Shown here in pieces: positions 21,405 through 55,534 of a stretch of 64,000 nucleotides of DNA. The stretch is from Branchiostoma floridae (Eukaryota; Chordata; Leptocardii; Amphioxiformes; Branchiostomatidae): assembly GCF_000003815.2 (NCBI RefSeq), contig NC_049993.1, positions 5,609,686 to 5,673,685 on the forward strand, written 5' to 3'. The position numbers were made by a program, and so were the translations under genes. The notes beneath the pieces were generated by a model, which did not search any database, had not been told where the DNA came from, and saw only the letters and a program-made list of their open reading frames with translations. Each line of letters starts with the position of its first letter. The first letter of the stretch is position 1.

Positions 21405-21620
21405 CACGCGGGAAGTGCCCTGGCGGATCACATTATCACGTACCTGCGCCGCAGGACCGTTACCTGCCCGACTCACCTGTACCTGTGCGTGTGTGTGTAG
21501 AGGGACTTCACCTGTCTCGTTGAGAAGTATCAGACCGTCAACACTCTGTGGGAGAAAACACACACAACAGTCGTCTTCGCCACGTTGTGGTCACATAGAG
21601 AGAACCAACCCCGTACCAGC

Positions 21621-22766
21621 ATGACCGCGGAGACCAAGTGCGACGCGGCGGAGACACCCGCGTGTGTCACCGAGAACCGGCCGCCGCAGGACCCGCTGTC
21701 GGAGAACGAGGCCGTGCAGATAAAGGCAGAGCCGGGAGAGGAGACGCCGGCTCAGCAGAACACGAGCGGAGGACGCCGCCGTAAGCGCCCGGTCCAGAAG
21801 GGCAAGCCCCCGTACAGCTACATCGCGCTGATCTCGATGGCGATCGCCAACTCCCCCGAGAGGAAGCTGACCCTGGGCGGCATCTACAAGTTCATCATGG
21901 ACCGGTTTCCCTACTACAGGGACCGCGACAAGAAGTGGCAAAACTCCATCCGACACAACCTGACGCTGAACGACTGCTTCGTGAAGATCCCGCGGGAGCC
22001 AGGCCGTCCAGGCAAGGGCAACTACTGGACTCTCGACCCCGCCGCCGAAGACATGTTCGACAACGGCAGTTTCCTGCGGCGGAGGAAGAGGTTTAAGCGA
22101 GCAGACAGCTCCACGTACATGGCGAACTTCATGCAGGACTCCACCAGCGCCTTCACGCCGACCCAGACGGGCAGGCCGCCGTACCAGACCATGTACGCTG
22201 CGCGGGACTACCTGTCCCAGCTGCCGGGAGGCACGGGCCCGACGCACCCGGCCATCATGCATCACTACCCGAGCACCACCATGTCGCAACACCGCATGTT
22301 CAGCATCGACAACATCATCGCCGAGCGGCAGGCCGGTCTCATGTCCACCAGCCCCTCCGACCTCACCAGGGGGTCCCTGGGGATGGACCAGAACCCCCTC
22401 AACACCCTCACTCCCCCCGCCCCACAGCTGACACACTCCCCATCCATGCCCAGCCCGGGTCTCCAGGTCTCCAACTCCAACCATTCGTCCTTCGGCGTGT
22501 CCGCGGCCATGATGCAGGCCAACTCCCAGAGCATGGCCTCCTCCCTGCCTTACCCCTTCACACCGGCCACCACCAACACGGCCTTCGGTACCTCCTCCTA
22601 CTCCAACGGGAGTAGCTGCGCGCAGATGTACGGTAACGCCGGGATCCGCGGGACGGGCTCGATCTCCGACGACCTGTCGCAGGTTGCCGCCAGCGTGACG
22701 CAGCTGAACGGGAACTACATGCGGCAGCAGGCCTACAACTTAGAACGGTACGTCTCGCCAATATGA
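21621..22766 (+). CDS. FoxE: FoxE forkhead transcription factor (FoxE4-like)
   Basis: An intronless 381-residue winged-helix transcription factor. The forkhead domain runs from about residue 62 ([20 protein letters not shown]) to about 156, includes [17 protein letters not shown], and ends in the basic stretch [10 protein letters not shown] typical of FoxE. The [17 protein letters not shown] lead-in and [13 protein letters not shown] exit match vertebrate FOXE1/FOXE3. The start at 21621 is chosen because MTAE matches the start of vertebrate FOXE1; an in-frame ATG at 21585 would add 12 residues. Other features are a SUMO-consensus IKAE near residues 44-47, an eh1-like Groucho-binding motif FSIDNII at 227-233, and a C-terminus ERYVSPI resembling the FOXE1 end. 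FoxE genes act in pharyngeal endostyle/thyroid (FOXE1) or lens (FOXE3) development. Vertebrate FOXE genes are also single-exon. Confidence 0.95.
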
Positions 22767-36300: not shown

Positions 36301-39300
36301 ACACCATTCCCGTATTGTGATTTTGAGAGGAGAAAATGGGATTCCTTATGTTGCATCTTGTCAATAGAACTTTAGACGCTATCAACTAATTGATTTGGAA
36401 ACAGTAGTCGTTTATTTATCTTGTGGCAACATCACATTGCTGGGATTCCAACAGTCAATTATACCATGTATGTTTCCTTTCCAGAATGGAGATAGTGCCT
36501 ACCAGACTAGATGGTGTAAAACTCAACATTCCCAAGGACCCATCAGCGTTCCTCCAGCAGATTCCGCATGCCAGGTTCCTGGAGTGTAACTACGCGCAGG
36601 CCAGGAAATTCCACACAGCGTACGGGTCGGACCAGACTGCAGAGGGTGTTGAGTTTGTGGGGAAGGCCAAGTCTCTGCTGTCTCAGGGCAGGGCTGTGCT
36701 GGACAGGATAGGGGTGCGCTTCTGGATGAGCAGTGGGACATGTTTAGGTGGGTACTGGGACAGTGGGACATGTTTAGGTGGGTACTGGGACAGTGGGACA
36801 TGTTTAGGTGGGTACTGGGACAGTGGGACATGTTTAGGTGGGTACTGGGACAGTGGGACATGTTTAGGTGGGTACTGGGACAGTGGGACATGTTTAGGTG
36901 GGTACTGGGACAGTGGGACATGTTTAGGTGGGTACTGGGACAGTGGGACATGTTTAGGTGGGTACTGGGACAGTGGGACATGTTTAGGTGGGTACTGGGA
37001 CAGTGGGACATGTCTATTGGGTACTGGACAGTGGGACATGTTTAGGTGGGTACTGGACAGTGGGACATGTTTAGGTGGGTACTGGGACAGTGGGACATGT
37101 TTAGGTAGGTACTGGGACAGTGGGACATATTTAGGTGGGTACTGGGACAGTGGGACATGTTTAGGTGAGTACTGGGACAGTGGGACATGTTTAGGTGGGT
37201 GCTGTGACAGTGGGACATGTTTAGGTGGGTACTGGGACAGTGGGACATGTTTAGGTGGGTACTGGGACAGGATAGGGGTGCGCTTCTGGATGAGCAGTGG
37301 GACATGTTTAGGTGGGTATGATGATGATGATTGTTTTATCAGAAATGAAGATACCTGGCTACTTCACCGCAAACTTAAAACCACAGCAAACATTTTTCCA
37401 TGGCAGTAAGAGACTACAGTGCATGGTGCTACCGCGAACTTAAAACCACCGCGAACAGTCCTTTTTCCCCGCGAACTTAAATGCATTTACAGTACTAGGA
37501 TAGAGGGGTATAACATGTATGCTGTAAAATGGTTCTAACAATTCCAATACTTCATTACCAATAGTCAAATTTCTTCCTTAAACAATAATGACTGAAATGT
37601 ACTTGTAGTGTACCTTCACAATCGACTTGCACAATATGATAATGTAGCAATTTCCAATCTACTTTTATCATATTGATATTAGGCACATTTATACATAAAA
37701 ATATGAAGCTTCCTGAACCTCTCCTCTTCATCTTTATTGTCATGCATACTTTTACTTATTTCTTCAGTTTTTTTTATTATGTTTCTTCTATTACTCCTTC
37801 TCTTTCTCCACCCCCCTCCTATCCTTCTCACTAGCACTCACTATCTGGTTTATTAGATGTTGATGCTAGATGGCAGCTCACCAGCAGTCTCTGTGTTTAG
37901 GGCTAGCACTGTGTAGTTGAAGATATGAAGATCCTCCTTATCCTTCTCCTTATATCAACAGCCATTATAACCTACCTGTCCTGTATGTCTTCCCCTAGGT
38001 TGGTTCCGACAGTGTGGGATCATCCCCCACAGTAAAGACGTGGATTTTGGGATCTGGATCAAGGATTACAAGGACACACTGATCCCAGCTTTCCAGGCAG
38101 CCGGGCTGCCACTCAAACACAGGTTTGGAAAGGTGGGCAGATATTGTCAATATGTGTGAGGGCTAGGAAGATGTGTGTTACTTTGCAGTCTTTACTGTAA
38201 CTTGTAGGGAAGGGTTCAAGCTAGAAACACAGTTATTGCCAATTGCCAATATGACTTTGTTTTTCTCTGGATTTCTGTCCAGATTCCTGTCCAGGTTTCT
38301 GTCCGTTTTTCCGTCCGGACTGAACTTTTGGCAGTGGGCATCCTAGCGAAACAACCCACCCACCCCTTTTATTAAAAAAAGGAAAAATACTCTAGGTGCC
38401 TTTACCTGCTTTTTGTGGCACATAGCATGAAATTTTTCATTGATTATATCAACCATTCAATTAAATCAAATTATGCTATACAATTCCTTTCTTACTTTCA
38501 AACAAATTAAATTTCAACAAAATTCTTCAGTTCTTTTAATTAAAGGCCTTTGATGAAGCAATCTCACATAAATTATGTTAATCCTTGCAGGAAACTACAC
38601 AACAATGCAATGGCTGCAATTTACCTTGCAAAGCAAAAGTGGGTCCATGATACAATTGGATCAAATTATGCCATACAATTTTTTTTGTATGATTTTCCAT
38701 GCAGGTTGAGGACAGTTTTGAGCTGTCCTTTCAGTCAGGAGACGTCAAACTGGACATTTTCTTCTTCTATGAGGATGATGACATCATGTGGAACGGTGGG
38801 ACACAGGCGCGCACAGGCAAGAAGTTCAAGTAAGCCTTCATTCACTTTGAAAAAAAAGGAGAGTTATGTAGAAGCCTTTTTTACCTTTGCTTGCAAGAGG
38901 AGTGGATGTACAAGTAATGAGAGGTCAGCATTTTGTTGGGTTTATAGATTAAAAAATTTGCATAGCAGTTGTAGTGACTTTTTTGCTACATAACAATAAT
39001 TCTAATCTACCTTACAAAGGTAGATTACTACATCACTAGAACATGCATACTGGTATACATGTATCTAGTGGTTTTGGTTGTTAAATGTAGGGTAACAGTT
39101 CTTGGAAGGGGGCTCACATACATTTAAATTAGACAGACTAGGGATACCATAGAATAAAAAGCCTTTGTGTTATACCACATCCTTGTTATTCACCAATTAC
39201 ACCATACAGATCCTGCTTATTTTGTTTGTCATTGATGTATATTATCTTAATCACTACTACAACTACAAAATGTCAATTATTTGCTGAATTATAAATCCGC

Positions 39301-39546: not shown

Positions 39547-41017
39547 TGGTGAAGAAATTTCAGCCAGAATTTGCCTAAAGATGTCTTCCAATGCCAGATA
39601 ACTGTATATTATGTATATGGATGTACACAGTCATATATTAATTTAGCACATTAATATTGAAATTACTTCTATTGGCTACTATTTATAGTGTGTTATTTAA
39701 TAGTACTCTATGTTGATAAAGCCACAAGGAGTACAGGCATGCCTAATACTAATACTGTAAATATTTTAGCTTCATGTTCAGAACAATCAGATTGTATAGT
39801 TTTATATTAACATGAACTAGAATGCAGTATGTATGATAGAATACTAGAGATTCTTGTGCATGACCAAGCCCTTCGTACCTGACCAAGTTATGGTAGTCCT
39901 CATGACTATGAATGATGAACTACAGGTGTAAGGAGAGGGGTAGAGAGTAAGCCTTGTTTGAGAATACATTTTCTCTGCAGAGCCACCTAGCGGTGAAAAG
40001 TGGTCTTACAGCCTGATTGAAGCAGACAGTAACACGTGCAGGTAAAAACTTGGTTGTGTAAAAGAAAACTGTTAGATCCTATGGTCTACCAAGGTGTTGA
40101 AACCATTCATGGGTTGTGTTGTGTGATAATTTATTTTTGATACTTATTAAGCAAATGACAGTATCATAATTTTGTGTGAGCTAGTATGGTCCTGGAGACA
40201 ACTCTCCATCTTCTTGTCTAGCTTGTCCCCCCAATGACCAGGAGGTCAAGGGACTAGGAAGGTTAGTGGTCGTAGTAGGTAGTATGATAAGGGCATAAAA
40301 GTCTCATGGTAAAAGTTGTGAGTTTGGCAGTAACGAAAGATAGTGCAATAGTGTCAAGACAAAGTAAGAAAAAGAAAAACGATGGACATGCAGATAAGGG
40401 AGTGTCTCACTGTTGCAGACATGTAGCAAGGCAGTAAGTGTTGGGAATAAAGATATGTATTGGTGGAAATTACTGCCTTTCTGAGTGTTGTTCTTCATGC
40501 ATTGACTCAGTATTCTATTTTGTATCTTTAGAAAAAGACAAAAGTACATGATGCAGCCAGGAAACTCTTTACCTTTTAGATACTGAGTGAGTGCAAAAAT
40601 GAATATGTTTGTCATTGAATGATTAAGAAAATGAATGAATGAGTCAGTGAAACTATCATGTTAGAAAACTTCAGGTGTATTTCATCCTGTTGCATGATAT
40701 TTTCTACTATGTATACAATCAATCTATCATCACACTTTACCTGTAATTATTATAACATCTGTTTGCTTGTTGGACATCCTATTCTGTAGCTTCTGCTTTT
40801 GTGTTTTTACTTGTTGTTATGATTTAAGATCCCCGCAGGCAAATCAACAGCACCTATCTAAGTGGTAGGACGACTGTGTTCCCTGGCACAGAAGCCTCAG
40901 GCCACACAGGAACAATGGTGTTTGTGACCCTGATGACGTGCATGTGACATTACAGCATATGACCTGAACTGAGGTTCGTTTCCTCCTGCGTCCTTACTTG
41001 CCCGAGCCACAGTCGTT
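39547..41017 (+). other. fukutin 3' flank and duplicated 5' flank of receptor A
   Basis: No gene. From about 39.9 kb the sequence shares blocks (for example ACTTGGTTGTGT, TGCAATAGTGT and the 40826-41017 leader) with the regions before receptors B (45.8-47.6 kb) and C (51.4-52.7 kb). The tandem duplication unit therefore includes roughly 1 kb or more of upstream DNA. Confidence 0.55.
40826..41017 (+). promoter_or_regulatory. shared 5' leader/promoter block of receptor A
   Basis: AAGATCCCCGCAGGCAAATC here corresponds to AGGATCCCCCCAGGCAAAC before receptors B (from 47361) and C (from 52443). All three blocks then share a GTTGCAGGACGACT-like segment, an ACAATGGTGT segment and a CCGA..CCACAG segment next to the start codon. 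Copy A is the most diverged. It is presumably promoter plus 5' UTR. Confidence 0.5.
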
Positions 41018-44000
41018 ATGGGAGGACCAAGCTTCTGCTGTGTTGTCTTGGTGGTAATGATGATTGTGCAGCTTGACTGTGTTATAGGGAATGTACAAGG
41101 TTAGTCTAATGCCATGGTGTGTTTGGCTGGCTGCCATTTGTCCTTAATATTTATCAGAAAGACTGCTGACTAATTTTTTAAAACTTCACTTCCTGATGGC
41201 TTAGGGTAACATAGAGGAACAACCCATATGAGATTCAGAGATTTGTTTTGCTGTTCTGAACAATCTGTGATGTTAATAGTCTCCGTTTTATAAGGTTCAT
41301 TATGACCACCTGTCTACAATTCTACATTAAAAACGTTATCCAACTAAATTTTTAAAACTTCACTTCCTGATGGCAAAGAGGAACAGCCCATATATACATT
41401 CAGACATTTCTGTTCAGAACAACCTGTGTTTTAATTGTTTCTGCTGCTATTACACTAAGTCTTTCTGTTTTATTAGGTTCATTATGGCCACCTGTCTACC
41501 ATTTTACATTGAGAACTTTATCTAAAACTTACTCTTATTTTTAGTTGTATACTGTAAATGTATTTAAGTTCGCGGGGATTTAATTTCGCGGTAGCGGGAA
41601 AAAGGACCTTTCGCGGTGGTTTTAAGTTCGCGGTACCACTCTTAGTAGTCTCTTACTGCCATGGAAAAAAAATTTTCGCGGTGGCTTCAAGTTCGCGGTG
41701 AAGCGGCCACCGCGAAAACCGCGAACATTAAACCACCGCGAAAGTTTCTGCATTTACAGTTTCAGCTGTTTTACACATGAAATAGTACAATACATTTCAT
41801 AATTCAAGTGACCAAAAGGGAGATTGTGTCAGTGTTCAGTTTGTGTGAGCCATTAATTTATTTATTTTTAAACAGATCTTCGGTTAATAGGGGGTCAGAC
41901 ACCAAATGAAGGACGAGTTGAGGTACAATGGCGCAACAAACGTCGCATACGCTGGTTTGTAGTCTGTGAGAAGGGATGGAACAATGATGACTCCAGTGCA
42001 GCTTGCCGTCAACTAGGATATCCTGAAGGTGGTGAGGCCACGGACAAAAATATGGAACGGGGAAGTCTACCTTTTCTCCGGAAAAAATTTGAATGCAAGA
42101 GAGGTAAACTCTAGGGATTTTAATGATTCTTAACAATGATAATAACATAAATACCAACTCCAGTAATAACAGACAATGAATCATTTTATTGACTTGGTTA
42201 CAAAGCATTTCTTTGACATAGCTGCCACCATCTCTGTACAATGAAAACTGATTGATTGAATCATGGAAAAAAAATCACAATTTTTACATGTACTTTAATA
42301 ACTTTTTGCAATTTCAGGAGATTCTGTTTTGAGTGTCTGTAAAACTAGAAGGTTTAAAGAAAAATGTGAACCAGAGCATGAGCCTGCGAAATTCATCTGC
42401 AATGGTGAGATAATTTGATGTTAAGTTATTATACATTGCCTAAGGCAAGTGGGGAATTATTGGGTAATACATGTGTCAAGGTTGATTACTTCAAGTCAGG
42501 AAGTTTTGTCTCCCAGAGCTTTAAGGGTATAACAGTTGAATGGGAATAAGTTTGATGAAAGGTCTGCCATATGTAAGTTAAGAATTAGTGCACACCCATT
42601 ACAGATTGAAAGAGGCCGCTATATAAAGCTACCTGTCCACGAGAGATTTTGTAAATATTGCTCAATGAATGCGGTGGAAAATGAAATACATTTTATTAGT
42701 CAGTGTCCTCATTATGAGGTTGAAAGAAACCGATTATTCCAAACAATCGCTACAATTTCACCCAGTTTTTGCAACCTAGGACATCGCCAAAAGACTACAT
42801 TTTTACTGAAGTCACAAAACCCACTTATTTTGCAGGGTGTGGGACAGTTCATTAACCACTGCCTTCTAAGAAGAAGTCAAATCCAATAATAAGATGCAAC
42901 TTCAGCTGAATAGACATTAGTGCTATGTACTACATTGTATTTTGTTTTCCTCGAGAATGTTCCTGCAATTAGCCTTCGGGCATGACTTTGCAAATAAACT
43001 TGTTGAAATTGATGTGGGATACATTCTGACATTCGATAATACCAGTACATAAAAGTCCATTTGCAAGTTGGTCTGATTATATTAATTATGTAACATAGTA
43101 ACAGGTAACAGGTCACCTACTAACTTCTACTACTACATTGTCACCTGGACCTGGATATATCCCCACAGTGATGCTCAACACCACAGACACCACAGCTGAG
43201 CTGAGCCTAGCAGACAGCACTATATTGTGGCCAGCTACCACAATAGGGACTACAATTGAAACAACTTTGTTCGAAGATTTAATGACCAATGATGCAACAC
43301 AAGGTACAGAGTCTATCCTATAATTTTGTTACTGTTGCCTAGATGAAATTAGCCTGATTGGTTGGTGAGTTGAGAGTATGGGAGTCCCAGTAAATTAACT
43401 AACTTAAAGATGACAATCAGGCTAGATGAAATATGAGATTTCTGAAAAATTAACTGATACATTGAAGAACTTATGCCAAATCACTACTTATTACCCAGCT
43501 GTTAGCAATCTTGTTTGAAGAATATCATTGTTTGAGGATGCTGTTTCTTATTGTAAACTGTAGGCACTATAACTGCAGGAAGGAAGAGCCAAGCACCAAG
43601 CCCTCCTATTCAGTTACAGCAATTTCCTATTGGTGAGTAGTGCTATTCCCAACCTTATACTTTTTCTACTACATTTCATACATGTAGTTCTTAAGAGTAA
43701 TCCTCATCAAACTTAAGACAGAAGTTAACAAAGTTAACAAGAGGTCTTGGTACTGAGTTGAAAACCGAATTGAATGTAGTACATAGTTATGATATATGAT
43801 TGAAAGATAGTCTATAATGTTACATGCCAAGTGACACCGAAGACCATACACAACTAAGACTTCTAATATCAAAGTACATTAATGTGATTAAGGAAAAGTT
43901 TTATTAAGAAACAAAGTTTTGAAATTTCTCATTAATATGTGCATTTTAATCATATTCCAGCCGACTTGAAACTTTTAATCATTTTTATTACACTTAGAAA

Positions 44001-44770
44001 CTGAACTATACTCTTTTTTCTTCTTACAGTTCCAGTAGCAGCTTCCCTCGGCACTGTTCTTGGTTTGTTGTTGTTGTTGGCAGTATTACTGTTCATCTTC
44101 TGCAGAAGGAGAAGGTATGGTAAACATGATTTTAGTTCTTAAATACTAATTAACTGAGTCTTGAATTTCTCTTGACATAAAGTACAGGTATTTTCTCAAG
44201 ATGCAAATCACTAATGAATGAAGACCTTTATTGCACATTTTTGCCCCACTGGGCTAAGTACAGGTCACACGGTAAGAATCACATTATATGTAGCAATGGA
44301 AACAATCATACACATCTATATATGCAGATGTGCGTCTAATCTATTCTATGACATTCGACTTCCTAATGATGTTCATCTCTAAAACTCTTATTCTAAGTTT
44401 TAGTGATACCCTGGTACAATATATTTCCTCACCCCCAATAATGTCTTTGTATGTATCATGATTCAGGGCCAGGAGTCAAGAAGACAACATGACTGCAAAG
44501 CTGGACAAAGATACTGACCAGGTTGGTATGGGAGAATTAGGGACAGGACAACATGACGATGATGAACATAACTATCATACAATCCAGGAGCCTGCTATCA
44601 ACAGCAAGGGGCTGCCCATCATCCCAGCATCACCCAGTGAACACGATGAGAACTACAGCACCATCCCAGACCTACTGTCAGACAGGCTTGAAGAACGTGC
44701 CCCGGCCCCACCGCCGAGCCAAACGGATGAGTGTGGGACAGTGGAGAATGTTATTTATCAACCATCTTAA
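41018..44770 (+). CDS. receptor A: SRCR-domain type I membrane receptor with tyrosine tail
   Basis: An unnamed receptor. Exons: 41018-41099 (signal peptide), 41876-42103 and 42318-42404 (SRCR domain), 43169-43303 (stalk), 43564-43632 (stalk), 44030-44114 (membrane helix), 44467-44770 (tail); 329 residues. An alternative stalk acceptor at 43112 would add 19 residues that align better with receptor C (SPGPGY versus SSGPGY) but has a poor pyrimidine tract. The SRCR domain starts DLRLIGGQTPNEGRVEV, contains VVCEKGW and ACRQLGY, and has six cysteines over two exons, as in group A SRCR domains. The helix is LGTVLGLLLLLAVLLFIFC followed by RRRR. Tail tyrosines: NYHTI, NYSTI, IYQPS. All exon joins up to the helix are phase 1. 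Ligand unknown; SRCR receptors usually bind microbial or modified-self surfaces. Confidence 0.85.
41551..41760. mobile_element. 210-bp MITE with ACTGTAAATG ends
   Basis: Starts ACTGTAAATG and ends CATTTACAGT. The interior is rich in TTCGCGGT, AAGTTCGCGG and inverted CCGCGAA motifs. Related copies lie at 37362-37493 and 49262-49469. It sits in intron 1 of receptor A. Confidence 0.75.
41876..42404 (+). CDS. receptor A SRCR-domain exons
   Basis: Two exons, 41876-42103 and 42318-42404, each phase 1-1. Cysteines are in VVCEKGW, ACRQLGY, FECKRG, SVCKTRR, EKCEPEH and FICN. The split over two exons and the six cysteines fit a group A SRCR domain. They occupy the position where receptors B and C have a single C-type lectin exon. 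Confidence 0.88.
42500..42889 (+). mobile_element. fragment of a non-LTR retrotransposon (C-terminal zinc-binding region)
   Basis: A 117-codon open stretch reads KLRISAHPLQIERGRY, then RFCKYCSMNAVENEIHFISQ and CPHYEVERNRLF. The C-x2-C, then H and C spacing with E(N)EIHF(I) is typical of the region after the reverse transcriptase in LINE-like elements (CR1/L2/RTE-like copies in many invertebrates). The rest of the element is absent, so this is a 5'-truncated relic in intron 3 of receptor A. Confidence 0.7.
43169..43632 (+). CDS. receptor A stalk exons
   Basis: Exons 43169-43303 and 43564-43632, both phase 1-1, encode Thr/Ser-rich sequence (NTTDTTAEL, TTIGTTIETT) and then SQAPSPPIQLQQFPI. This resembles an O-glycosylated stalk. 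The second ends QQFPI like receptor B (QQFPI) and C (NQFPI). Confidence 0.7.
44030..44770 (+). CDS. receptor A transmembrane and cytoplasmic exons
   Basis: Exon 44030-44114 (phase 1 to 2) encodes VPVAASLGTVLGLLLLLAVL and a basic stop-transfer. Exon 44467-44770 encodes the tail with HNYHTIQEP, ENYSTIPDLL and ENVIYQPS. Compared with receptor C, the tail lacks about 80 central codons: SQTD is joined directly to ECGTVENVIYQPS, and the tyrosine of C's DEYGTV is cysteine here. Confidence 0.85.
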
Positions 44771-45294
44771 AGGGGCATTCCACTCCACACGATGGTGTTA
44801 TTTTCCGATAGATATTAAATTTAGGAAGTAATAACTGCATACTACTTCACATTATACGATAAATTACCCAGTTGCTCCACGTGCCTCAAAGGCATTCAGT
44901 CTTCTACTTAACTCCCCAAGTACCCTCTAATTGAATTAATCCTACGGCTGAATACAATGCAAAACTTTTAGGTAAAACTACAAAACTAATTTCAGGTTCG
45001 CTAAGAAATCTCGTCTTGTTCTTGTATTCTTTGCTATCTTATGAGCAATTTGCCTTCTCGGTGTGCTTAGCGTACCTCATTTATTCCGAAAATATGTACG
45101 ATAAACAAAGTGTCTATGCGCATAGGGAATGCATGGGAAGGGTCTGCATGGGTTTAGTGAGTGTCATTAGTGTTTACAAAACATACATCGCGTAATTCAT
45201 CCCAAGATGAATTTCACAAAATTCGGCTGATTGTGTATTCATTGACACATTATCAATTGGAAAACAAGACTCCCTTCTGGAGTGGAATGCCCCT
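44771..45294. mobile_element. 524-bp MITE at a TTAA site on the receptor A stop codon
   Basis: The element has 17-base terminal inverted repeats beginning AGGGGCATTCCACTCCA, flanked on both sides by TTAA (44767-44770 and 45295-45298). In receptor C the uninterrupted site reads TCTTAAGGGCACTTTCTC, and here the same GGGCACTTTCTC follows the right TTAA. The TTAA duplication is the hallmark of piggyBac-type transposition. The left TTAA contains the TAA stop codon of receptor A, so insertion preserved the stop and replaced the original 3' UTR start. Confidence 0.88.
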
Positions 45295-46674
45295 TTAAGG
45301 GCACTTTCTCACATAACTGTGCACCATCCTGAAGTACTGGTACAAAGCCTTGAGTGAATATGCCTGGGTCTTTGCATGTGACACCACATCATTGCTTGAA
45401 ACTGAAAGAGTAATCCCTATGTTATGCCTCTAATCATAAAGTATACAAAGTCAACTCCCATGTTCAGCCATCCAGCTTAGTATCCAAGACTACCATCATA
45501 GTCAGATGAGATTAGATTATGTAGGGATATTACATTAAAGGAAGGACCAGAATGTGTTGAAAGTCATGATGAAATGTTTTAACCAAGTTAACCGTTGCTT
45601 TATATTTCCTTATTATTTTTTCAATGTTCTTGTACATATTTTTTCCTGACATAATTGACTCATTTGGTATGCAAGGATGTATATATTATGTAACAGCATT
45701 GAATGCTATGTTAAGAAAACACTGCTGATTAATACATTTATCAATATTTACATAGTAAGGGAATCTTGAAGAAATTGAAAGGACAAGCCAGTGAGCTTTC
45801 CTTCATACAAATCAGATAACACAGATGATATTTAATGCAATACAGTACTCAAAGGTGAACTTTTCTGAGGTTTGGTTGTGTGTAAGTTCTGGTAAGGTTG
45901 TTGTACATTATTTCTACCTTATACATGTACTGGAAACTGTATTATTCATAAAAATCTGCCTAAGGCAGTAGGTAAGTGTAGCAATACAGTAGCATACAGA
46001 CTAATGGAACAGAACATGGCCAGAACTTGGTTGTGTGCAAGGAAACTCCTCTGCCCTTCCAACAAGTTGAAACTGTCCACAGATAAGTTTATCAATAATA
46101 AATTTTGTAGTAATTGACAGTAGATTGGAGCTAGTTTGGTAAATGCACTAGAAAAGCTTATGGGAGAAGATGTGAGTAACATTAACATGTGCAATAGTGT
46201 AAATACAACATGAGAAGGACAGCAAGGAAAGAGAGAAAATAATAACAGACTTGCTGATGTAGAGTCTCTCACTTAATTGCAAACAGCATGAAATAAAAAA
46301 AATACTGGTGGAATTTAACACCCTATTATTTTTTTCAAACATTGACTCAGTAGTCTACATTATTTCTATATGTTTAGATATCACCAGTTGAAAGAATGAG
46401 ACTGGCTGCAGATAGAGTGTCGCACGACGTGCGAGCTACTATAAGTCTAAGTAAGTTGACAGAAAGGAGTAAAATAAAAGTTGCCAAAGGGGCCATTCCA
46501 TTAAGAGTTTCAGGACGGTCAGTCAAGAAACTACCGGTATTTCCCCTCTAGTGATTGAGTGGATAGATGATTGAGTTCGTCAGTGAATGAATGAAAGAGT
46601 CAGTGCTAGAAAATAAACAATCATGTCAGAAAAGTTCTGGTGCATTTCATTCCCCTAACAACAACTACCTTATG

Positions 46675-46771
46675 TAGCCTGAGCACCTTCCATCCTGGCG
46701 CAATCCTTTTGCTTGCTAACCATGCAAAAGGATTGAGCCGGCGGTCACTACGGATGATGGTACTCAGGCTA
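46675..46771. repeat. hairpin element upstream of receptor B
   Basis: TAGCCTGAG at the left and CTCAGGCTA at the right, with inner arms CAATCCTTTTGC and GCAAAAGGATTG. The left arm lacks about 12 bases present in the right arm. An orthologous hairpin lies upstream of receptor C at 52211-52313. Confidence 0.75.
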
Positions 46772-46785
46772 CACTATAATCAGGT

Positions 46786-47224
46786 TAAAAAAAGTTAAAC
46801 CCTTCCCGCGCCAAGGACAGTGCCCATTTCTGGTGCATAGGGCGGTGCCCATCTCTGTTTCGTTAGCCCTGGGCCACACACAACACAATCACTGCAGCAG
46901 GGGGCTAGTCCACCGGTAGTGGTGTGTGTTCAACTTCCATACTCTTTCCCGAATGCTGAGTGCTAAGCAGAGAAGGCAGCACGTACCATTTTTATAGTCT
47001 TTGGTATGACTCGGCCGGGATCGAACTCACGACCTTCCGAATGCAAGGCGAACACTCTACCCACTAGGCCATTGCACCGGCTACTCATTTTCACCTGAGC
47101 ATAGTGAGGAAAGTCGTGTTAAGTGCCTTTCCCAAGGGCACAAGATCGGTGACACGCAGTCGGATTCGAACCCGCAACCTCTCGGTCACGAGGCACAAAT
47201 GCCGCCGCTGTGCCATGCGACTTC
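46786..47224 (-). mobile_element. composite tRNA-derived SINE with 15-bp target duplication
   Basis: The direct repeat ACACTATAATCAGGT flanks the element at 46771-46785 and 47225-47239. On the - strand it holds two tRNA-like units: CGCATGGCACAGCGGCGGC ... GCGGGTTCGAATCCGAC, and then AATGGCCTAGTGGGTAGAG ... TGAGTTCGATCCCGGC, resembling pol III A and B boxes. It contains CTTGGGAAAGGCACTT and has an A/T-run tail on the - strand (GTTTAACTTTTTTTA). It is absent at the matching place before receptor C, so it inserted after the duplication. Confidence 0.85.
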
Positions 47225-47360
47225 ACACTATAATCAGGTACTAGTAATCAATACATAAACCTGTAGAAAGGTGTCCTTGGCTACTCTCTCAATCCTTATA
47301 CATGTGGCATGCACGTTAACACAACTTAGGATTTGTGGAATTGTTATGATATATATATGT

Positions 47361-47580
47361 AGGATCCCCCCAGGCAAACTATCAGTAACAACACCATACC
47401 TAAGTTGCAGGACGACTCTACGCTGTGATGAATGAGTTTCAGGCGACAGGGAGACAATGGTGTGTGTCACCTTGTTGGCCCGAAGTGATTATGACAGCAC
47501 GTGACCTATCACATCCAAGGTCTGTTTTCTTCTGTTCCCCTTTCCTTACCCGACCAGGCCACAGATCTACAGTGTGTATC
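47361..47580 (+). promoter_or_regulatory. shared 5' leader/promoter block of receptor B
   Basis: Starts AGGATCCCCCCAGGCAAAC and is nearly identical to 52443-52662 before receptor C. It contains a CACGTG E-box in GACAGCACGTGACC and ends CGACCAGGCCACAG close to the start codon. The transcription start cannot be placed. Confidence 0.5.
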
Positions 47581-50486
47581 ATGGCTCTTCAATCTGGCTT
47601 CTGTCTTATTTTTGTGGCTTTGATTATGACTGTGCATCTGCACTATGTTCTGGGGAACATACAAGGTTAGTTTGGACTCCTGATGTGCCTTAATTCTTCA
47701 CTATATCTATTGAATGTAAATGTTGGTAATTTATTCATTTTCTCTTTAGATTTACTTCCTGAAAGCTTTTTTAAACCTTGTTTAACAAGTGATGGCTTCG
47801 TGTGACAGTATGTTTAATGTATTCTGTTTCACAGCACAACTATTACAAAGATGGTACATGTCTAGATCTAGTGCTTGAGGAAATTGTCCCATTCAGCTCT
47901 AAAGGCTCTATAAGTGAAGACCTAAGATCAGTAAGAATAATGGAAAATGGTCATCACTACTGGAGGCATCCCGAAATTCCCACAGTTGATACTTTAAAGT
48001 CATCATGATGTTACATGTAGATGGTATCCCAGATATTTTCATTTCCTATCATTAAAAATCCAATAACATGACTCATTCACAGATTTTAGAATAGTGGTTC
48101 CTTGAAGTGGTGGATGTATGTGTGTAAATTGATAAAGTATAATACTGCATTTGATTATCCCCTGCAGTGTGTAGTACTGGGTACTCTCTCAAAGGTGGCT
48201 ACTGCTACAAAACATCCGGGGGTAACTACACTGCTGCACAAGCACGGTCATACTGCACTGATGAAGGAGCAATTGTAGCCGAGCCAAAGAGCCAAGAAGA
48301 GCACGACTACATCAAATCATTTATATCTGAAACCACCTGGATTGGAATAGCTGACCTTGATGATAGTGGCTCATTTGAGTATGTCAGTGACAATACATCA
48401 GTAGGTTTCAAGTCATTGGCTGATTCCCTCGGAATTGGCAAATGTATGGCAATGGACAAAGATCAAGATTATAACTGGATACGCACTGGCTGCTCCGCAG
48501 AACATCCAGTTGTTTGTCAACAAGGTAAGCTATTCTACCTGTCATCATAGTTGGGTTGCATGTTCAGTAACTATTGTTCACACTAACTTGTGGAGTTAAC
48601 AAGTGCAAAGTCTTACATACCATTGACAGTGCCAGGCTGACACCTGCGGTATTGATGTGTTTTGGATATGTGGTAAAATGTAAGCCTTTTTTGGTGGAGA
48701 TGTTAAGCTAAGACCATGTGAGGGTAAACACCATGCATTTGCTTGCCAATGTTTTCTACTTGTTTTCCCTCAGTACCTATAGGTAACATGGCATCTACAA
48801 CCGTTTTCCCATCATTTGGCCATAACACCCCAACACGAGGTACAGCAAGTATGCAATTGATCTCTTGTACTGTCTTGGCTTCTCTGGTGACACATTTAAT
48901 GTTGATACAAGGTCTTGTGTTCATTAATTGCTCTTCATTGATGTATTTATGATGCATATGAAATATACTGTTTGCTCTTAGCATAGAGTAATGACATCAC
49001 AGAAAGGACCGCTACTAGTTGCTTGTGGTGAAGTCCAAAGAGCATTTATTAGACAATTGGTTGAAAGATTATTAGATGTTTTCAGACAAGACCAAATTCA
49101 AATGTGAATGATAAAGGAAAGTTGATTTCACTTTAACATCAACAAATGTTTCCCATTGTGCATGGTAGGTCCCAATGAGAACAAAGAAAGCAGTACAACA
49201 GCAGGATTGAACTCATCTCCACGCTCCAGCAACCAGTCTCAACAGTTTCCCATTGGTGAGTACTGTAAATGCATTTAAATTCGTGGGGATAAAATATCGC
49301 GGTAGCGGGAAAAGGGACTTTCACGGTGGTTTTAAGTTTGCAGTAGCACCATACATTGTAGACTCTTACTGCCATGGAAAAATGTTCGCGGTGGTTTTAA
49401 GTTCACGGTGAAGCGGCCACTGCGAAAACCGCGAACAGTAAACCATCTCAAAAGTTTCTCTATTTACAGGATGTGATTTTTTTCATTTTGTCCCAAACAG
49501 TACAGTTGTATACTTTTTTTGATAAACAACAATTTATCTCCAAAATCATTTTATGAGTTTTTCAATCAATAACAAAGTGAAAATCAATAGATTTACATAT
49601 TCGAAATGGTCAAGATTCAATGCATGTAACATGAGTAGTACAACACTTACCTGGGGTACATGTATGTGCCTTTACAGTATGTACTGGTTGATTCAATGAG
49701 ACATACTGTACAGAAGGTGTAGGCTGAGTTAAAACAGTTTTCCTTTGAATTTGGTAATTATTAGCTTTTGAATGTCACTTGAGCATGTGTCTCATTAACC
49801 ATAATTCATACCAAATTTTCTGTGAGTAATTTGAAAATACTGGTAGTGAGTTGTTTGTATAACATACCTAATAACTGTATTATTATTAACCCTATTACTC
49901 TCACAGTTGCAGTAGCAGCTTCAGTTGGCACCGTTCTTGGCTTGTTGCTGTTGTTGGCAGTTTTACTGTTCTTCATCTGCAGAAAAAGGTAAGTTCAATA
50001 TGCTTTTTGTTATTGAATACTTGAGTCTTCTTCAATGATACAATTAAAGTATATGTATTTTCATCTACCAATGTGCAATCTAGTTCTAATTTTTTTCTAT
50101 CCATATGCTTGTAAGTTTGTGAAATTTTTGACCCCAGATAATGCCTTTGTATCTATTGTAATTCCTGGGTCAGGCACCAAGAAGACAACATGAATGATGG
50201 AGTTGAAAACGACTATGAAACAATCCAGGATCCTGCTATCAACAGCAACGGGCTGCCTGTCGCCTCAACAACTCCACCTAGTGAACACAACGAGAACTAC
50301 AGCACCATCCCCGACCTACCATCAGACAGGTTAGATGAACGTACACCAGCCGCACGGCTGAGCCAAGCCAATGTCTACTACAACGTTGTTGGGGACAGTG
50401 GTACCCCCAGCCCCATAGACCAGGCTGGAACGTCGGACACTACAAATACTACACAAGAACCGGAGTATGTCAATGTCAATATATAA
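47581..50486 (+). CDS. receptor B: C-type-lectin type I membrane receptor, truncated tail
   Basis: Exons: 47581-47665 (signal peptide), 48168-48524 (C-type lectin domain), 48774-48839 and 49169-49255 (stalk), 49907-49988 (membrane helix), 50174-50486 (tail); 329 residues. All ectodomain exons are phase 1-1. The signal exon MALQSGFCLIFVALIMTVHL is homologous to that of receptor A. Tail motifs are NDYETI, ENYSTI, VYYNVV (fits the ITIM consensus V-x-Y-x-x-V) and PEYVNV; it stops early, at NVNI, compared with receptor C. The tail acceptor is six bases downstream of the homologous site in A and C because the outer AG is mutated. Ligand and partner unknown; a role in innate recognition or cell-cell signalling is an inference. 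Confidence 0.85.
47835..47930 (+). other. possible cryptic or poison exon in receptor B intron 1
   Basis: A 96-base AG-to-GTAAGA bounded segment. If spliced from the phase-1 signal exon it would hit a TGA after 14 further codons. In another frame it is open without a stop. The matching segment in receptor C (52917-53012) is also 96 bases with the same borders. Because the surrounding intron is equally conserved between the recent duplicates, this may be chance. Confidence 0.25.
48168..48524 (+). CDS. receptor B C-type lectin exon
   Basis: A single phase 1-1 exon encoding a complete domain of about 119 residues: GGYCYK, TAAQARSYC, the WIG motif TWIGIADLDD, GKCMAMDKD, W-I-R-T-G-C and HPVVCQQ. 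It has the conserved cysteines, but W-I-R replaces the calcium-binding W-N-D and no EPN or QPD is present, so classic calcium-dependent sugar binding is unlikely. One N-glycosylation sequon, NYT. Confidence 0.9.
49262..49469. mobile_element. MITE with ACTGTAAATG end in receptor B
   Basis: Begins ACTGTAAATGCATTTAAATT two bases after the GTGAGT donor of the second stalk exon and ends in CTATTTACAG. The interior shares GGTGGTTTTAAGTT and AAGCGGCCAC with the 41551-41760 copy. It is absent from the same place in receptor C. Confidence 0.7.
49907..50486 (+). CDS. receptor B transmembrane and cytoplasmic exons
   Basis: Exon 49907-49988 encodes VAVAASVGTVLGLLLLLAVL plus FFICRKR; exon 50174-50486 encodes the tail. 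The tail follows receptor C until PEY, after which a net 7-base gain including a GTCAAT duplication shifts the frame and stops translation at 50486. Confidence 0.85.
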
Positions 50487-50514
50487 CAAGGCATCCAAAC
50501 GCAAGGAAAACAAG

Positions 50515-51176
50515 TGACCATAGGTAACATAGGTGATGTATTTATGGTTTCTGCCACATCAGTTGCAACAATATATTATATATTATGATATGGACAGTCC
50601 CAGACAAATAACAACGAACAGAAAAGAAAATGAAGTCCTAATGATAGCTCAGGACAAAGTATGTAGTAACATTACTTTTTTAACTATAACATTGTCACTG
50701 TTATGTGCTGTAATGTACATGTAATGTGCTAGGAAGCCAGACTCTAACATCTGTTTTGGGATTCTACATTAGAGAACACATAAATAACCTCGTATCTACT
50801 TGAAGATAAGCTAATTACCAAACCCCAAAATGACCATGGTACAGCATGGAATAACTGATAACACGACGTGTACAAAAGGATCAGAGAAAATCATGCAACA
50901 TTTGCTTGACAATATCCAATTACCGCAAGGCCCTAACAGGCGGAGATATTGCAGACCTGGACCAATATTCCGAAGGATGTAAGGGTAATTTCTGAAATTA
51001 TCGCATTGATTATAAAAACAGCTAACGTGAAAAAAATGTGCATAGCTGCGTGCAGAGGATATGCCAAACTACAAACGAATGTGGCAAAGGAAACATACAG
51101 ATGGAGATGCCAACACTCATCACATCGTACAAAAACAAAGCTCTGTCGCTGGGGGTTACCCTCCAGTCACAGAGCA
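50515..51176. other. about 660-bp insertion in the receptor B tail sequence
   Basis: Sequence absent from receptor C interrupts the homologous tail between CGCAAGGAAAACAAG and GAAGGAGGGATCTGATG. I see no terminal inverted repeats, no clear target duplication and no recognisable coding domain. It could be a retroelement fragment or a filler segment. Confidence 0.55.
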
Positions 51177-51340
51177 ATAAGAAGGAGGGATCTGATGACA
51201 CCACAGAATGGGGAACAGGTGCAGATGTGCCAGAGTATGCAGTTGTGAATAAGATTAAGAAGGACCAGAAAAAATAAGTAGAGGGTAAAGTAGAGGATGA
51301 GTATGAGACAGAGGAGAATGTTATTAAGGCACTCTCACAC
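51177..51340 (+). pseudogene. orphaned 3' end of receptor B tail
   Basis: Downstream of the insertion the sequence again matches the receptor C tail: SDDTTEWGTGADVPEYAVVN followed by KIKKDQKK and a stop, then a relic of DEYETEENVI that runs into the former 3' UTR without the final YQPS. It is no longer in frame or contiguous with receptor B and is presumably untranslated. Confidence 0.75.
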
Positions 51341-52210
51341 ATCTTTATCGCAACATAACTGTGCACCATCCTGAAGCATGATACAGTATTTGATGCAATA
51401 CAGTACTCAAAGCTGAACTTTTCTGAGGTTTGGTTGTGTGTAAGTCAGGTACTAGTTCTTGTACATTATTAATGATACTTATGTATAGTCTACATTATAC
51501 TGGGAACTGTATTATTAATTTAAAAAAACTGCCTTAAAAGGCCTAGGTAAGTGTAGCAATACAGTAACATACAGACTATTGAATAGAACATTGGAACTTC
51601 CGCCAGAACTTGGTTGTGTGCAAGAAAACTCCTAGTACGCATTCCAACATGTTGAAACTGTCCATGGATATGTTTATCAATAATCTATTTTTCAGTAATT
51701 GACAGTAGCATAACTAGATGGGAGCTGATACATTAAAAAAGCTTGTTGGAGAAGATGTGAGTAACAGTAACATGTGCAATAGTGTAAATACAACATAAGA
51801 AAGACAGCAAGAAAAGAGATAATTAATAACAGACATACTGATGTAGAAGTCTCTCGCTATTGCAAACAGCAGGAAGTATCTGAAATAAAAATACTGGTGG
51901 AAGTTTACACCCTATTATTTGTCCTCATACATTGATTCAGTAGTGTAACCTTTTATGTTTCGCGATATCACCATTTGACAGAGGAAGAAGCAAAACAAAT
52001 TAAAGTAGCCAAAGGGGTCATTTCATTAAGAGTTTCAGAAGGGTCAGCCAGGAAACTGTTTTACCCTTTAGTGATAGAGTGGATGAATGAATGAGTTTGT
52101 TAGTGAATGAATGAAAGAGTTTGCTAGAAACAATGATGTTAGAAACATTCTGGTGCATTTCATTCCCCTTACACCATTATCCTACTCAATGTGCATCTAC
52201 CTACTTAATA

Positions 52211-52313
52211 TAACCTGAGTATGATCCTCTGTAGTGACTGCTGGCTCAATCCTTTTACTTGCTAATCATGTGAAAGGACTGAGCTGTCACTACAGAGGAT
52301 CATACTCAGGCTA
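52211..52313. repeat. hairpin element upstream of receptor C
   Basis: The arms contain TGAGTATGATCCTCTGTAGT and its exact reverse complement, with weaker pairing inside (CAATCCTTTTAC / GTGAAAGGACTG). The counterpart is 46675-46771. Confidence 0.8.
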
Positions 52314-52442
52314 AAATTTATGTGCATGCCATCAGTTCATCAATACACATGTAGTAAGGTGTTCTTGGCTCCCCTCTCCCGATCCTTGTGCATGTAACAT
52401 GTATGTAAACACAATATAGGATTCATGGAATTGTTATGATTT

Positions 52443-52662
52443 AGGATCCCCCCAGGCAAACTATCAGTAACAACACCGTAGGTAAGTTGCAGGACGACTC
52501 TACGCTCTGTGATGAATGAGTTTCAGGCGACAGGGAGACAATGGTGTGTGTCACCTTGTTGGCCCGAAGTGATTATGACAGCACGTGACCTGTCACATCC
52601 AAGGTCTGTTTTCTTCTGTTCCTGTTTCCTTACCCGACCAGGCCACAGTCCTACAGTGTATC
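52443..52662 (+). promoter_or_regulatory. shared 5' leader/promoter block of receptor C
   Basis: Almost identical to 47361-47580 before receptor B, including AGGATCCCCCCAGGCAAAC, the CACGTG E-box and CGACCAGGCCACAG, with only scattered substitutions. Confidence 0.5.
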
Positions 52663-55534
52663 ATGGCTCTTCAATCTGACTTCCATCTTATTTTTGTGGC
52701 TTTGATTATGACTGTGCATCTGCACTATGTTCTGGGGAACATACAAGGTTAGTTTGGACTCCTGGTGTGCCTTAATTCTTCACTATATCTATTGACTGTA
52801 AATGTTGGCAATTTATTCATTTTATCTTTAGATTTACTTCCTGAAAGCTTTTTTAAACCTTGTTTAACAAGTGATGGCTTCATGTGACAGTATGTTCAAT
52901 GTATTCTGTTTCACAGCACAACTATTACAAAGATGGTACATGTCTAGATCTAGTGCTTGAGGAAATTGTCTCATTCAGCTCTAAAGGCTCTTTAAGTGGA
53001 GACCAAAGATCAGTAAGAATAATGGAAATGGTCATCACTACACATTATTGAATAGTGGTTCCTTGAAGTGGTGGATGTATGTGTGTAAATTGATAAAGTA
53101 TAATACTGCATTAATGATTATCCCCTGCAGCAAGCTCCTTGCCTGCAGTGTGTGTTACTGGTTACTCTCTCAAAGGTGACTACTGCTACAAAACATCCGG
53201 GGGCAACTACACTGCTGCACAAGCACGGTCATACTGCATGGATGAAGGAGCAATTGTAGCTGAGCCAAAGAGCCAAGAAGAGCACAACTACATCAAATCA
53301 CTTCTAATAGTTCTATCTAAAACCACCTGGATTGGAATAGCTAACCTTAAGGATAACAGCTCTTATGTGTACGACAGTGACCATACACCAGTAGGTTTCA
53401 AGTTATTGGGTGTTGATTATGGAAGTGGCAAATGTGTGGCAATGGACGAAGATCAAGATTATAACTGGGCCCGCTATGACTGCTCAACAGAACATTCTGT
53501 TGTTTGTCAACAAGGTAAGCCAGTCTACCTGTCATCAAAGTTGGGTTGCATGCTCATACTAATTTGTCAGCAAAAGCAGTCTCACATGCAATTAACAGTG
53601 AGAATTGCATTTTTCCAGACTGGCTGACATCTGTGGTATGGATATGTGGTTTAGATATGTGCTAGTATGTGGTTAAAACCTAAACCTTTTTTGTTGTTGT
53701 AGAAATATTAAGCTAGACCATGTGAAGGTAAACATCATGCATTTGCTAGCCAATGTTTTCTACTTGAGATGTGTGATTTCCCCTCAGTACCTGTAGGTAA
53801 CATGGCATCTACAACTGTTTTCCCATCATCTGGCCCTGGATATGACACCACTATGATGCTGAGTATGACAACAGCCCCAACACCAGGTACAGCAACTATG
53901 CAATTGATGTCTTGTTTGTCAGTACTGTTTTGGCTTCTCTGGTGACACATTTAGTTTTGATGCAAGGTCTTGAGGTTATTTATTGTTCTTCATAGATGTG
54001 TTTATAATGTATATAAAAACATAGTATTACTGTGTACTCTTTAGTGGGACAAGTTAGCAACCAGTCATGACATCAAAGAAAGGACCCCTAGCTATACCAA
54101 CTTAGTGATGCAGTCCACAGAACATTTATTACACAATTGGTTTAAAGATTATTAGATATTTTCAGACAAGATCAAATTCCAATGTGAATGATAAAGGAAA
54201 CTTGATTTCACTTGAACATCAACGAATGTTTTCCATTGTACATGATAGGTCCCAATGAGAACACAGAAGGCAGAACAACTCGAAGCTCCAGGAACCAGTT
54301 CCCCATTGGTGAGGAACCAACATGTTTTTTTTTCATCCATAACATGTATGGATTATTTTTAGGGATAAATCACTGTATAGAATTGCTAATTTATGGCTTT
54401 GAAAAAAGCACTCAAATATGAAGTGAAAACCAACTTGGAAATATATTCAAAGCATAAGAACATGCAGATGTCTATATAGTACAGTAACTGTTTGATTCAA
54501 CAGGACATAGCCATGTAACATTATGATACAAGAGATATAATAGGTAGTTGTCCTTTAGATTTGCTGATTAATCTTTTAAATGGCACATGTGTGTGTTTGT
54601 CAGTGTCACTATCATACTCTATACCAAATTTTCTGAAAATGCCAGTAGTAGCTGTTAGCATAGTATGCCTGATAAAGTTAACTGTATTATGCTCTTTTAC
54701 TCTCACAGTTGCAGTAGCAGCTGCAGTTGGCACCATTCTTGGCTTGTTGCTGTTGTTGGCAGTTTTACTATTCTTCATCTGTAGAAAAAGGTAAATTCAA
54801 CAATGTGTTGCTTTAATTGAATACTTAAGTCTTCTTTTGATACAAATTAAGTACAATGTCATGTATTTTCATCTACCAATGTGCAATGTGGTCATAATTT
54901 TTTTCAATTGAAAACATTGTAAGTTTGTGCAATTTTTCACCCCAGATAATGCAGTTTGTATCTATTGTAATACAGGGTTAGGCGACAAGAAGACAACATG
55001 ACTTCAAAGCCCGACAAGGACACCGACCAGGTTGGTATGGGAGAATTAGGGATGGTGCCAAATGATGGAGTTGAAAATGATCATGACTACCAAACAATCC
55101 AGGATCCTGCTATCACCAGCAAGGGGCTGCCTGACATCCCAACAGCTCCACCCAGTGAACACGATGAGAACTACAGCACCATCCCAGACCTACTGTCAGA
55201 CAGGGTGGACGAGCGTGCCCCGGCCCCACCGCCGAGCCAAACCGATGTGTACTACAGTGTTGTTCGGGACAGCGGTACCGCGCGCCCCCCAGACCAGGCT
55301 GAAGCATCGGACACCGCGAAGACAACACAAGAACCGGAGTACGCCGTGGTCAAGAAGGCATCCAAACGCAAGGAAACAAAGAAGGAGGAATCTGATGAAA
55401 CCATAGACCAGGGAACAAGTGCAGATGTGCCAGAGTATGCAGTTGTGAATAAGATAAAGAAAGACCAGAAAGCAGAGGGTAAAGTCAATGATGAGTATGG
55501 GACAGTGGATAATGTTATCTATCAGCCGTCTTAA
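52663..55534 (+). CDS. receptor C: C-type-lectin type I membrane receptor with full tyrosine tail
   Basis: Exons: 52663-52747 (signal peptide), 53149-53514 (C-type lectin domain), 53788-53886 and 54249-54308 (stalk), 54709-54790 (membrane helix), 54976-55534 (tail); 416 residues. A second acceptor at 53131 is in frame and would add six residues (ASSLPA type). It is the longest copy. The tail holds seven tyrosine motifs: DYQTI, NYSTI, VYYSVV (fits the ITIM consensus), two PEYAVV, EYGTV and IYQPS, separated by Lys/Glu-rich spacers. It is the best guide to the ancestral tail of the family. The ectodomain is close to receptor B. Signalling through SH2-domain proteins is an inference from the motifs. 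Confidence 0.87.
53149..53514 (+). CDS. receptor C C-type lectin exon
   Basis: Complete domain of about 122 residues on one phase 1-1 exon: GDYCYK, TAAQARSYC, TWIGIANLKD, GKCVAMDED, W-A-R-Y-D-C and HSVVCQQ. Three residues longer than receptor B before the WIG motif (LLIVLSK versus FISE). As in B, the W-N-D calcium motif is replaced. Confidence 0.9.
54709..55534 (+). CDS. receptor C transmembrane and cytoplasmic exons
   Basis: Helix VAVAAAVGTILGLLLLLAVL then FFICRKR (54709-54790); tail 54976-55534, which opens RVRRQEDNMTSKPDKDTDQV and ends DNVIYQPS. The 3' flank after the stop (TAAGGGCACTTTCTC) preserves the pre-insertion state of the TTAA site disrupted in receptor A. Confidence 0.87.

Follow-up and report, generated by a model that had tools for sequence, protein, structure and literature searches.

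According to the accessible portions of a genome-wide study, lancelets show the fastest exon shuffling among metazoans, biased to phase 1-1, and the scavenger receptor cysteine-rich (SRCR) and C-type lectin (CTL) types are among the lancelet receptors with fast turnover (PMC4284660); SRCR expansions are also covered in the accessible text of a second paper (PMC10855680). The FrLRR locus of Branchiostoma belcheri is thought, in the part of its description at hand, to reflect exon shuffling of the leucine-rich repeat (LRR) region of Slit2-N into another gene, and its authors favour illegitimate recombination (PMC10199209). Here we analyse a stretch of 64,000 nucleotides from Branchiostoma floridae (the window, C15:5609686-5673685, within a searched assembly of 513.4 Mb in 431 contigs), in which three receptor genes lie head-to-tail on the + strand: A (41018-44770), B (47581-50486) and C (52663-55534). 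The literature on lancelet exon shuffling and receptors, as far as its partly covered main texts extend, yielded no description of this cluster.

We consider it probable (roughly 0.75), to judge from the sequence, that A, B and C are a tandem family of type I membrane receptors that have a leader, stalk, helix and tail in common (together referred to here as the chassis), and whose ectodomain has been changed by exon transfer. Each gene consists of a hydrophobic leader, an ectodomain, a stalk, a helix exon and a single tail exon (seven exons in A, six in B and six in C), and with AG acceptors and GT donors the products are open over 329, 329 and 422 aa, respectively. The ectodomain of A is a two-exon SRCR domain (PF00530, E=5e-16), while that of B and C is a one-exon C-type lectin-like domain (CTLD; PF00059, E=5e-14 in B and 1.4e-13 in C). 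In all three genes the leader exon is of phase 0-1, the ectodomain and stalk exons are 1-1, the helix exon is 1-2 and the tail exon runs from phase 2 to the end. A preliminary description of this DNA had proposed the three-gene layout with its coordinates and its SRCR and CTLD domains, and had placed every exon between the leader and the helix exon in phase 1-1; the gene models and Pfam bear this out, and its wider proposal, that differing recognition domains came to sit on one chassis through transfer of phase 1-1 exons, is supported by the analysis that follows. Acceptors are ambiguous at A exon 4 (43169 or 43112, same phase), at C exon 2 (53131 or 53149, same phase) and at the tail exons of A and C (a 6-nt choice). 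The features of the three genes, all on the + strand, are these:

40814..41017 (+): A 5' region (promoter/5' untranslated region), homologous to B and C by blastn and best local alignments
41018..41099 (+): A exon 1, signal/leader, phase 0-1
41876..42103 (+): A exon 2, first part of SRCR (Pfam), phase 1-1
42318..42404 (+): A exon 3, second part of SRCR (Pfam), phase 1-1
43169..43303 (+): A exon 4, stalk; homology to C exon 3 begins at about 43103 and the acceptor may be 43112
43564..43632 (+): A exon 5, stalk, phase 1-1
44030..44114 (+): A exon 6, transmembrane helix, phase 1-2
44467..44770 (+): A exon 7, tyrosine tail; acceptor 44467 or 44473
47581..47665 (+): B exon 1, leader
48168..48524 (+): B exon 2, CTLD (Pfam), phase 1-1
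48774..48839 (+): B exon 3, stalk
49169..49255 (+): B exon 4, stalk
49907..49988 (+): B exon 5, transmembrane helix, phase 1-2
50174..50486 (+): B exon 6, truncated tyrosine tail
52663..52747 (+): C exon 1, leader
53131..53514 (+): C exon 2, CTLD (Pfam); acceptor 53131 or 53149, phase equal
53788..53886 (+): C exon 3, stalk
54249..54308 (+): C exon 4, stalk
54709..54790 (+): C exon 5, transmembrane helix
54976..55534 (+): C exon 6, longest tyrosine tail; acceptor 54976 or 54982

The chassis of A can be aligned with that of B and C on both sides of the ectodomain. By blastn the 5' region and leader of A match those of C (A 40814-41105 with C 52431-52753, E=3.9e-14) and of B (A 40822-41105 with B 47357-47671, E=3.6e-8), and in best local alignments of A 40600-41017, 151/200 positions are identical to C and 157/211 to B. 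The helix exon with its edges is 82% identical between A and B (E=7e-30), the tail is 82% identical between A and C (E=6e-88), and the 3' flank of A also matches B and C. Matches between the stalk of A and those of B and C are at 67-70% identity, with E-values from a small search space: 2e-6 against C and 0.037 against B for the first stalk exon (A 43103-43175), and 7e-8 against B and 0.025 against C for the second (A 43564-43642). Between these blocks the homology of A and B breaks off 6 bp inside intron 1 and begins again with the stalk exon. The ectodomain exons of A have no match in B or C at the DNA or the protein level, and A intron 1 (41100-41545) does not significantly match the start of intron 1 in B (its score being reached in 23/300 shuffles) or in C (42/300). 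Shuffles, here and below, kept dinucleotides in the A intron 1 comparisons and in the donor-intron test in C intron 1, and permuted non-overlapping two-base units in the intron-only tests of B, C and the C10 units. The sole A-B match in the leader-to-stalk span is a short repeat, 84.5% identical between A intron 1 (41550-41759) and B intron 4 (49261-49469), which by reading resembles a miniature inverted-repeat transposable element.

We have found that an EGF-CTLD gene on a different contig, C10, most likely donated the CTLD to the chassis, and not the reverse. Among the best 150 scored matches, the nearest CTLD relatives of B outside the cluster are two C10 exons, at 62% and 54% identity, followed by one on C8 at 44%; a match on C6 scores level with the second C10 CTLD and sits in a near-copy of it. 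By Pfam the C10 exons belong to a tandem EGF/CTLD gene at about 9.935-9.937 Mb, in which both units (9935k and 9936k) have EGF and then CTLD. B 47777-48546 aligns by blastn with C10:9936060-9935280 at 66.7% identity (E=1e-94 to 6e-94), and the alignment takes in the final ~33 bp of the EGF exon in unit 9935k (EGF_3 4.6e-11, EGF_CA 4.6e-10), its splice donor, the EGF-CTLD intron, the CTLD exon and 22 bp beyond. The corresponding features in the window are:

47777..48546 (+): putative transferred segment in B, consisting of the EGF exon end (47777-47807), donor intron, CTLD exon and 22 bp of the next intron (blastn, shuffles, Pfam)
52859..52941 (+): EGF-exon end and donor intron in C intron 1 (76.5% identical to C10, E=3e-12; 0/300 shuffles)

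The intron by itself matches the same unit. Compared with 9935k, 229/315 positions are identical in B (score 67, reached in 0/300 shuffles, the highest of which was 18) and 105/142 in C (0/300), and the introns of B and C show no match to the neighbouring unit 9936k (score reached in 247/300 and 208/300 shuffles, respectively). A intron 1 (41100-41545) shows no match to 9935k (231/300). Between the two C10 units the intron alone gives no significant match (77/300), and EGF and intron taken together do give one (0/300). The EGF remnant, in B as in C, lies unused in intron 1; it is out of frame, with a 2-nt deletion relative to 9935k, and reads CLTSDGF followed by a stop. The broken end of a neighbouring exon within an intron is the mark of a copied-in segment, which argues that the CTLD moved from the EGF-CTLD gene to the chassis. 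B and C share a CTLD plus its intron with a C10 gene that is otherwise unrelated to them, and both hold the EGF end and donor intron in intron 1. We note that the C10 gene resembles B and C in its CTLD, in the preceding intron and in the EGF exon whose end persists in them, but differs in being a multi-unit EGF/CTLD gene, in which tblastn of A, B and C gave a best E of 0.7 outside the CTLD. A donor segment made up of the EGF exon end, the intron and the CTLD exon would thus have been inserted into chassis intron 1, with the leader, stalk, helix and tail retained. Both join intervals in B are intronic (47672-47776 and 48547-48773), and because the joins lie within introns and the exon is of phase 1-1, the reading frame would have been kept.

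The CTLD exon of B and C contains no EPN, QPD or WND motif. EPN or QPD together with WND are the motifs of calcium-dependent C-type lectins, and calcium-dependent sugar binding is therefore not implied for this exon. Its relatives in the PDB include lymphocyte antigen 75. The C6 near-copy (L046 4154-5581) is a 99.86% copy of the C10 CTLD segment that adjoins a run of N and may be an assembly matter; with its edge at that run, it is not counted here as a further transfer.

Several observations weigh against this account of the CTLD. We made protein trees of 11 rows and of 9 rows, hand-picked from the top of 150 scored matches plus one fragment, with the C6 near-copy left out. In the tree of 11 rows, B, C and the two C10 units fall together in a 98/97 group without resolution among them; the tree of 9 rows pairs 9935k with 9936k at 81/83, with B and C not nested among the C10 units, and a clade of B, C and 9935k is neither shown nor rejected by the approximately unbiased test (p-AU 0.147). 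This conflict between tree and intron could stem from exchange between the tandem C10 units. In addition, the EGF remnant is only ~33 bp long, and a lax blastn in which the C10 locus was compared with itself links both units over a stretch that includes their introns (61.9% over 885 columns). The identity of the donor intron, 72.7%, is also close to that of the 5' flanks of A and B/C (74-79%); by the same best local alignments, B and C are 84-87% identical outside the tract described below and the 3' untranslated regions (UTRs) of A and C are 83% identical. Since the donor intron has diverged about as much as A from B/C, the import would be about as old as the split of A or a little older. An import before that split and one after it both fit, such that A may or may not once have carried a CTLD.

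B and C have in addition exchanged sequence with each other, or so the following tract of low divergence suggests:

B 47345..48355, C 52435..53345 (+): B-C low-divergence tract, from the 5' region to mid-CTLD, ~1 kb

Identity within the tract is 95.7% over 880 aligned columns, compared with 79.6% over the other 2225, and the log-likelihood gain of 75.2 exceeds the maxima of 100 block shuffles (31.9; 0/100 reach it) and of 100 column shuffles (8.1). The leader exons of B and C show 0 synonymous differences in 19 sites. The tract is probably the product of later interlocus gene conversion; a recent double crossover would look alike.

The SRCR domain of A has six cysteines over two exons. Group A of the SRCR domains is characterized by six cysteines and by a domain split across two exons, and the domain of A appears to fit this group; its relatives in the PDB are CD163 and other SRCR proteins. 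The domain has only distant relatives among the best 150 of 307 candidates, the top match reaching 39% identity across the whole domain, and half-domain SRCR exons on C15, C17 and other contigs are 43-51% identical to A. We also note arrays of SRCR exons (C17 at ~6.02, ~6.08 and ~2.09 Mb, C15 at ~0.96 Mb; L050-L053) whose matches, 35-51% identical to the first SRCR exon of A, stop about half-way, as they do in A, and CTLD exons near some such arrays on C15 and C17. When the SRCR exons were compared with genome DNA together with their introns, only they themselves were matched, with no SRCR donor and no transfer remnants among the matches. The SRCR domain of A might be the older ectodomain or the product of a second exchange. 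One further feature lies 3' of the SRCR exons:

42545..43003 (+): repeat in A intron 3, the 3' end of a long interspersed nuclear element (LINE) by reading, with no family assigned (best copies 94-99% identical; 41 matches, best 40 of 1005 candidates)

Copies of this repeat are up to 97-99% identical, so the repeat is young, and it is probably younger than the domain change. LINE-mediated transfer of the SRCR exons is unlikely given the youth of the repeat and its position 3' of those exons; its assignment to the LINEs comes from reading only.

Two alternatives concern the history of A and are compatible with import of the CTLD, and we regard each as unlikely. An ancestor may have had both SRCR and CTLD, with A having lost the CTLD and B and C the SRCR. 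A gene region at C2:6.897-6.899 Mb (L048 6588-9100) does have EGF, SRCR and CTLD exons in a row, and the divergence of the donor intron equals or exceeds that between A and B/C, with which import before the split of A fits. The C2 domains, however, are far relatives (28-38%), and neither a trace of a CTLD in A (best E 0.25), nor one of an SRCR domain in B or C (best E 1.0), nor one of the donor intron in A 41100-41545 was found. Alternatively, A may be a recombinant formed by unequal crossing-over, with the 5' region, leader and SRCR exons of an older paralogue joined to a B/C-like stalk or tail. A and C are indeed less alike in the 5' flank (identity 0.755-0.787) than over the 3' UTR (0.831), synonymous divergence (dS) in the leader is ~0.95 compared with 0.28-0.39 in the tail, and DNA has been exchanged elsewhere in the cluster. 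Against such a junction, the intron between helix and tail is as diverged as the 5' flank (0.78-0.79 over 71-83 bases), the stalk matches stand at 67-70%, and the leader counts are tiny, with 17.7 synonymous sites.

Far less likely still are the two alternatives that would overturn the preferred reading itself. The direction of transfer could be reversed, with the chassis CTLD as the source and a C10 gene that acquired the CTLD and then added EGF. The CTLD tree alone does not fix direction, but both C10 units share the order EGF, intron, CTLD, and what B and C hold is the broken end of an EGF exon within an intron, which would not be expected in a source gene; we therefore find this direction hard to credit. 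It is similarly improbable that A is an artefact of annotation in which the SRCR exons and the tail belong to separate transcripts. A is known here from genomic DNA alone and the acceptors of two of its exons are ambiguous, yet its leader, stalk, helix and tail are each homologous to those of B and C in equal order and phase, and its frame is open across seven exons.

The tails are not constant, contrary to the preliminary description. That of A is without an in-frame 246 bp present in C, the ends of the gap lying at a GATGAGT/GATGTGT repeat, and that of B is truncated by an early stop, which is followed by ~670 bp of other DNA and then by the old distal tail:

51179..51376 (+): relic of the B distal tail, 3' of the B stop

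The tails of A, B and C are 104, 106 and 188 aa long, with 3, 5 and 8 tyrosines, respectively. Two tyrosine motifs of the YxxI/V kind, YxTIQ-P and ENYSTIPDL, are common to all three, and neither fits the strict immunoreceptor tyrosine-based inhibitory motif (ITIM; S/I/V/LxYxxI/V/L), which is matched by none in A, by one in B (VYYNVV) and by one in C (VYYSVV). The pattern of the corresponding activation motif (ITAM; YxxL/I-x6-12-YxxL/I) has no match in the three tails, and by reading none of the three helices contains a charged residue, which together with a short tail would mark the activating partner among paired receptors. The suggestion that these are paired receptors is accordingly not supported. 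Helix-plus-tail of A and of B gave no Pfam match above cut-off. The ratio of nonsynonymous to synonymous divergence (dN/dS) in the tail is 0.36 for A-C, 0.36 for B-C and 0.46 for A-B, and 0.83 in the part of the CTLD almost wholly outside the low-divergence tract, all on small counts. Synonymous divergence of the tail is alike in all pairs (0.28-0.39), and that of the helix exon is lowest for B-C (0.10 vs 0.35 and 0.53). We suggest that the proteins would stand at the cell surface, with the SRCR domain or CTLD binding a ligand and followed by the stalk and one helix, and that the tail tyrosines, either phosphorylated or as YxxI/V sorting signals, could lead to signalling or uptake.

A larger family had also been envisaged, and our helix-plus-tail search found no further copy of the chassis in this assembly. 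Seven matches were obtained with helix-tail of B (six in A/B/C and one weak, E=0.32), four with the A tail (three in A/B/C and one weak, E=0.93), and five with pieces of the C distal tail (two in C, one in the B tail and two in the B relic); the 5' region of B matched only B and C. The queries were single proteins and only the best candidates were scored, a design in which very diverged copies could be missed. Elsewhere in the window, a 420-codon open frame at 21501-22760 encodes a forkhead domain (PF00250, E=2.2e-38) and lies upstream of fukutin exons, and 36408-37406 is an open frame that begins with a match to the fukutin N-terminus (PF19737) and continues, by reading, as an in-frame minisatellite.

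A more general reading, which we offer only tentatively and hold to be doubtful on balance, is that the leader-stalk-helix-tail cassette serves as a standing acceptor, with intron 1 having taken in modules more than once (the CTLD from the EGF-CTLD gene and the SRCR domain from elsewhere) and gene conversion spreading a new ectodomain between copies. If so, this would amount to a slow, germline re-targeting of one signalling tail. What makes a case of this kind useful is that direction and joins of the transfer can both be read from it, since it preserves the type of donor, the intron carried along and a broken piece of the adjoining donor exon. With one tail joined to two unrelated recognition domains, and with the donor gene and both join intervals named, other lancelet genomes could serve to date the history of this locus, and cell assays to test the receptors.

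In vertebrates, CD5/CD6 and the C-type lectin receptors have an extracellular SRCR domain or CTLD, one helix and a tyrosine tail, the same build as that of A, B and C, and we know of no chassis common to the SRCR and CTLD types among vertebrate receptors. Among lancelets, the FrLRR locus is, like the A/B/C cluster, a receptor locus attributed to exon shuffling; however, as far as its published account could be consulted, FrLRR is glycosylphosphatidylinositol (GPI)-anchored and arises as a read-through transcript, with no cytoplasmic tail and no description of sister genes that bear another ectodomain on the same tail (PMC10199209). A further parallel is the genome-wide study of Huang et al. 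2014, in which phase 1-1 domain exons moved between lancelet genes, as the CTLD exon appears to have done here, but which in its accessible text gives no account of the A/B/C cluster, of a donor intron with an EGF fragment, or of two ectodomains on one tail (PMC4284660). Shuffling of phase 1-1 exons in lancelets is already published, and A, B and C are a new and well-preserved example of this known process.

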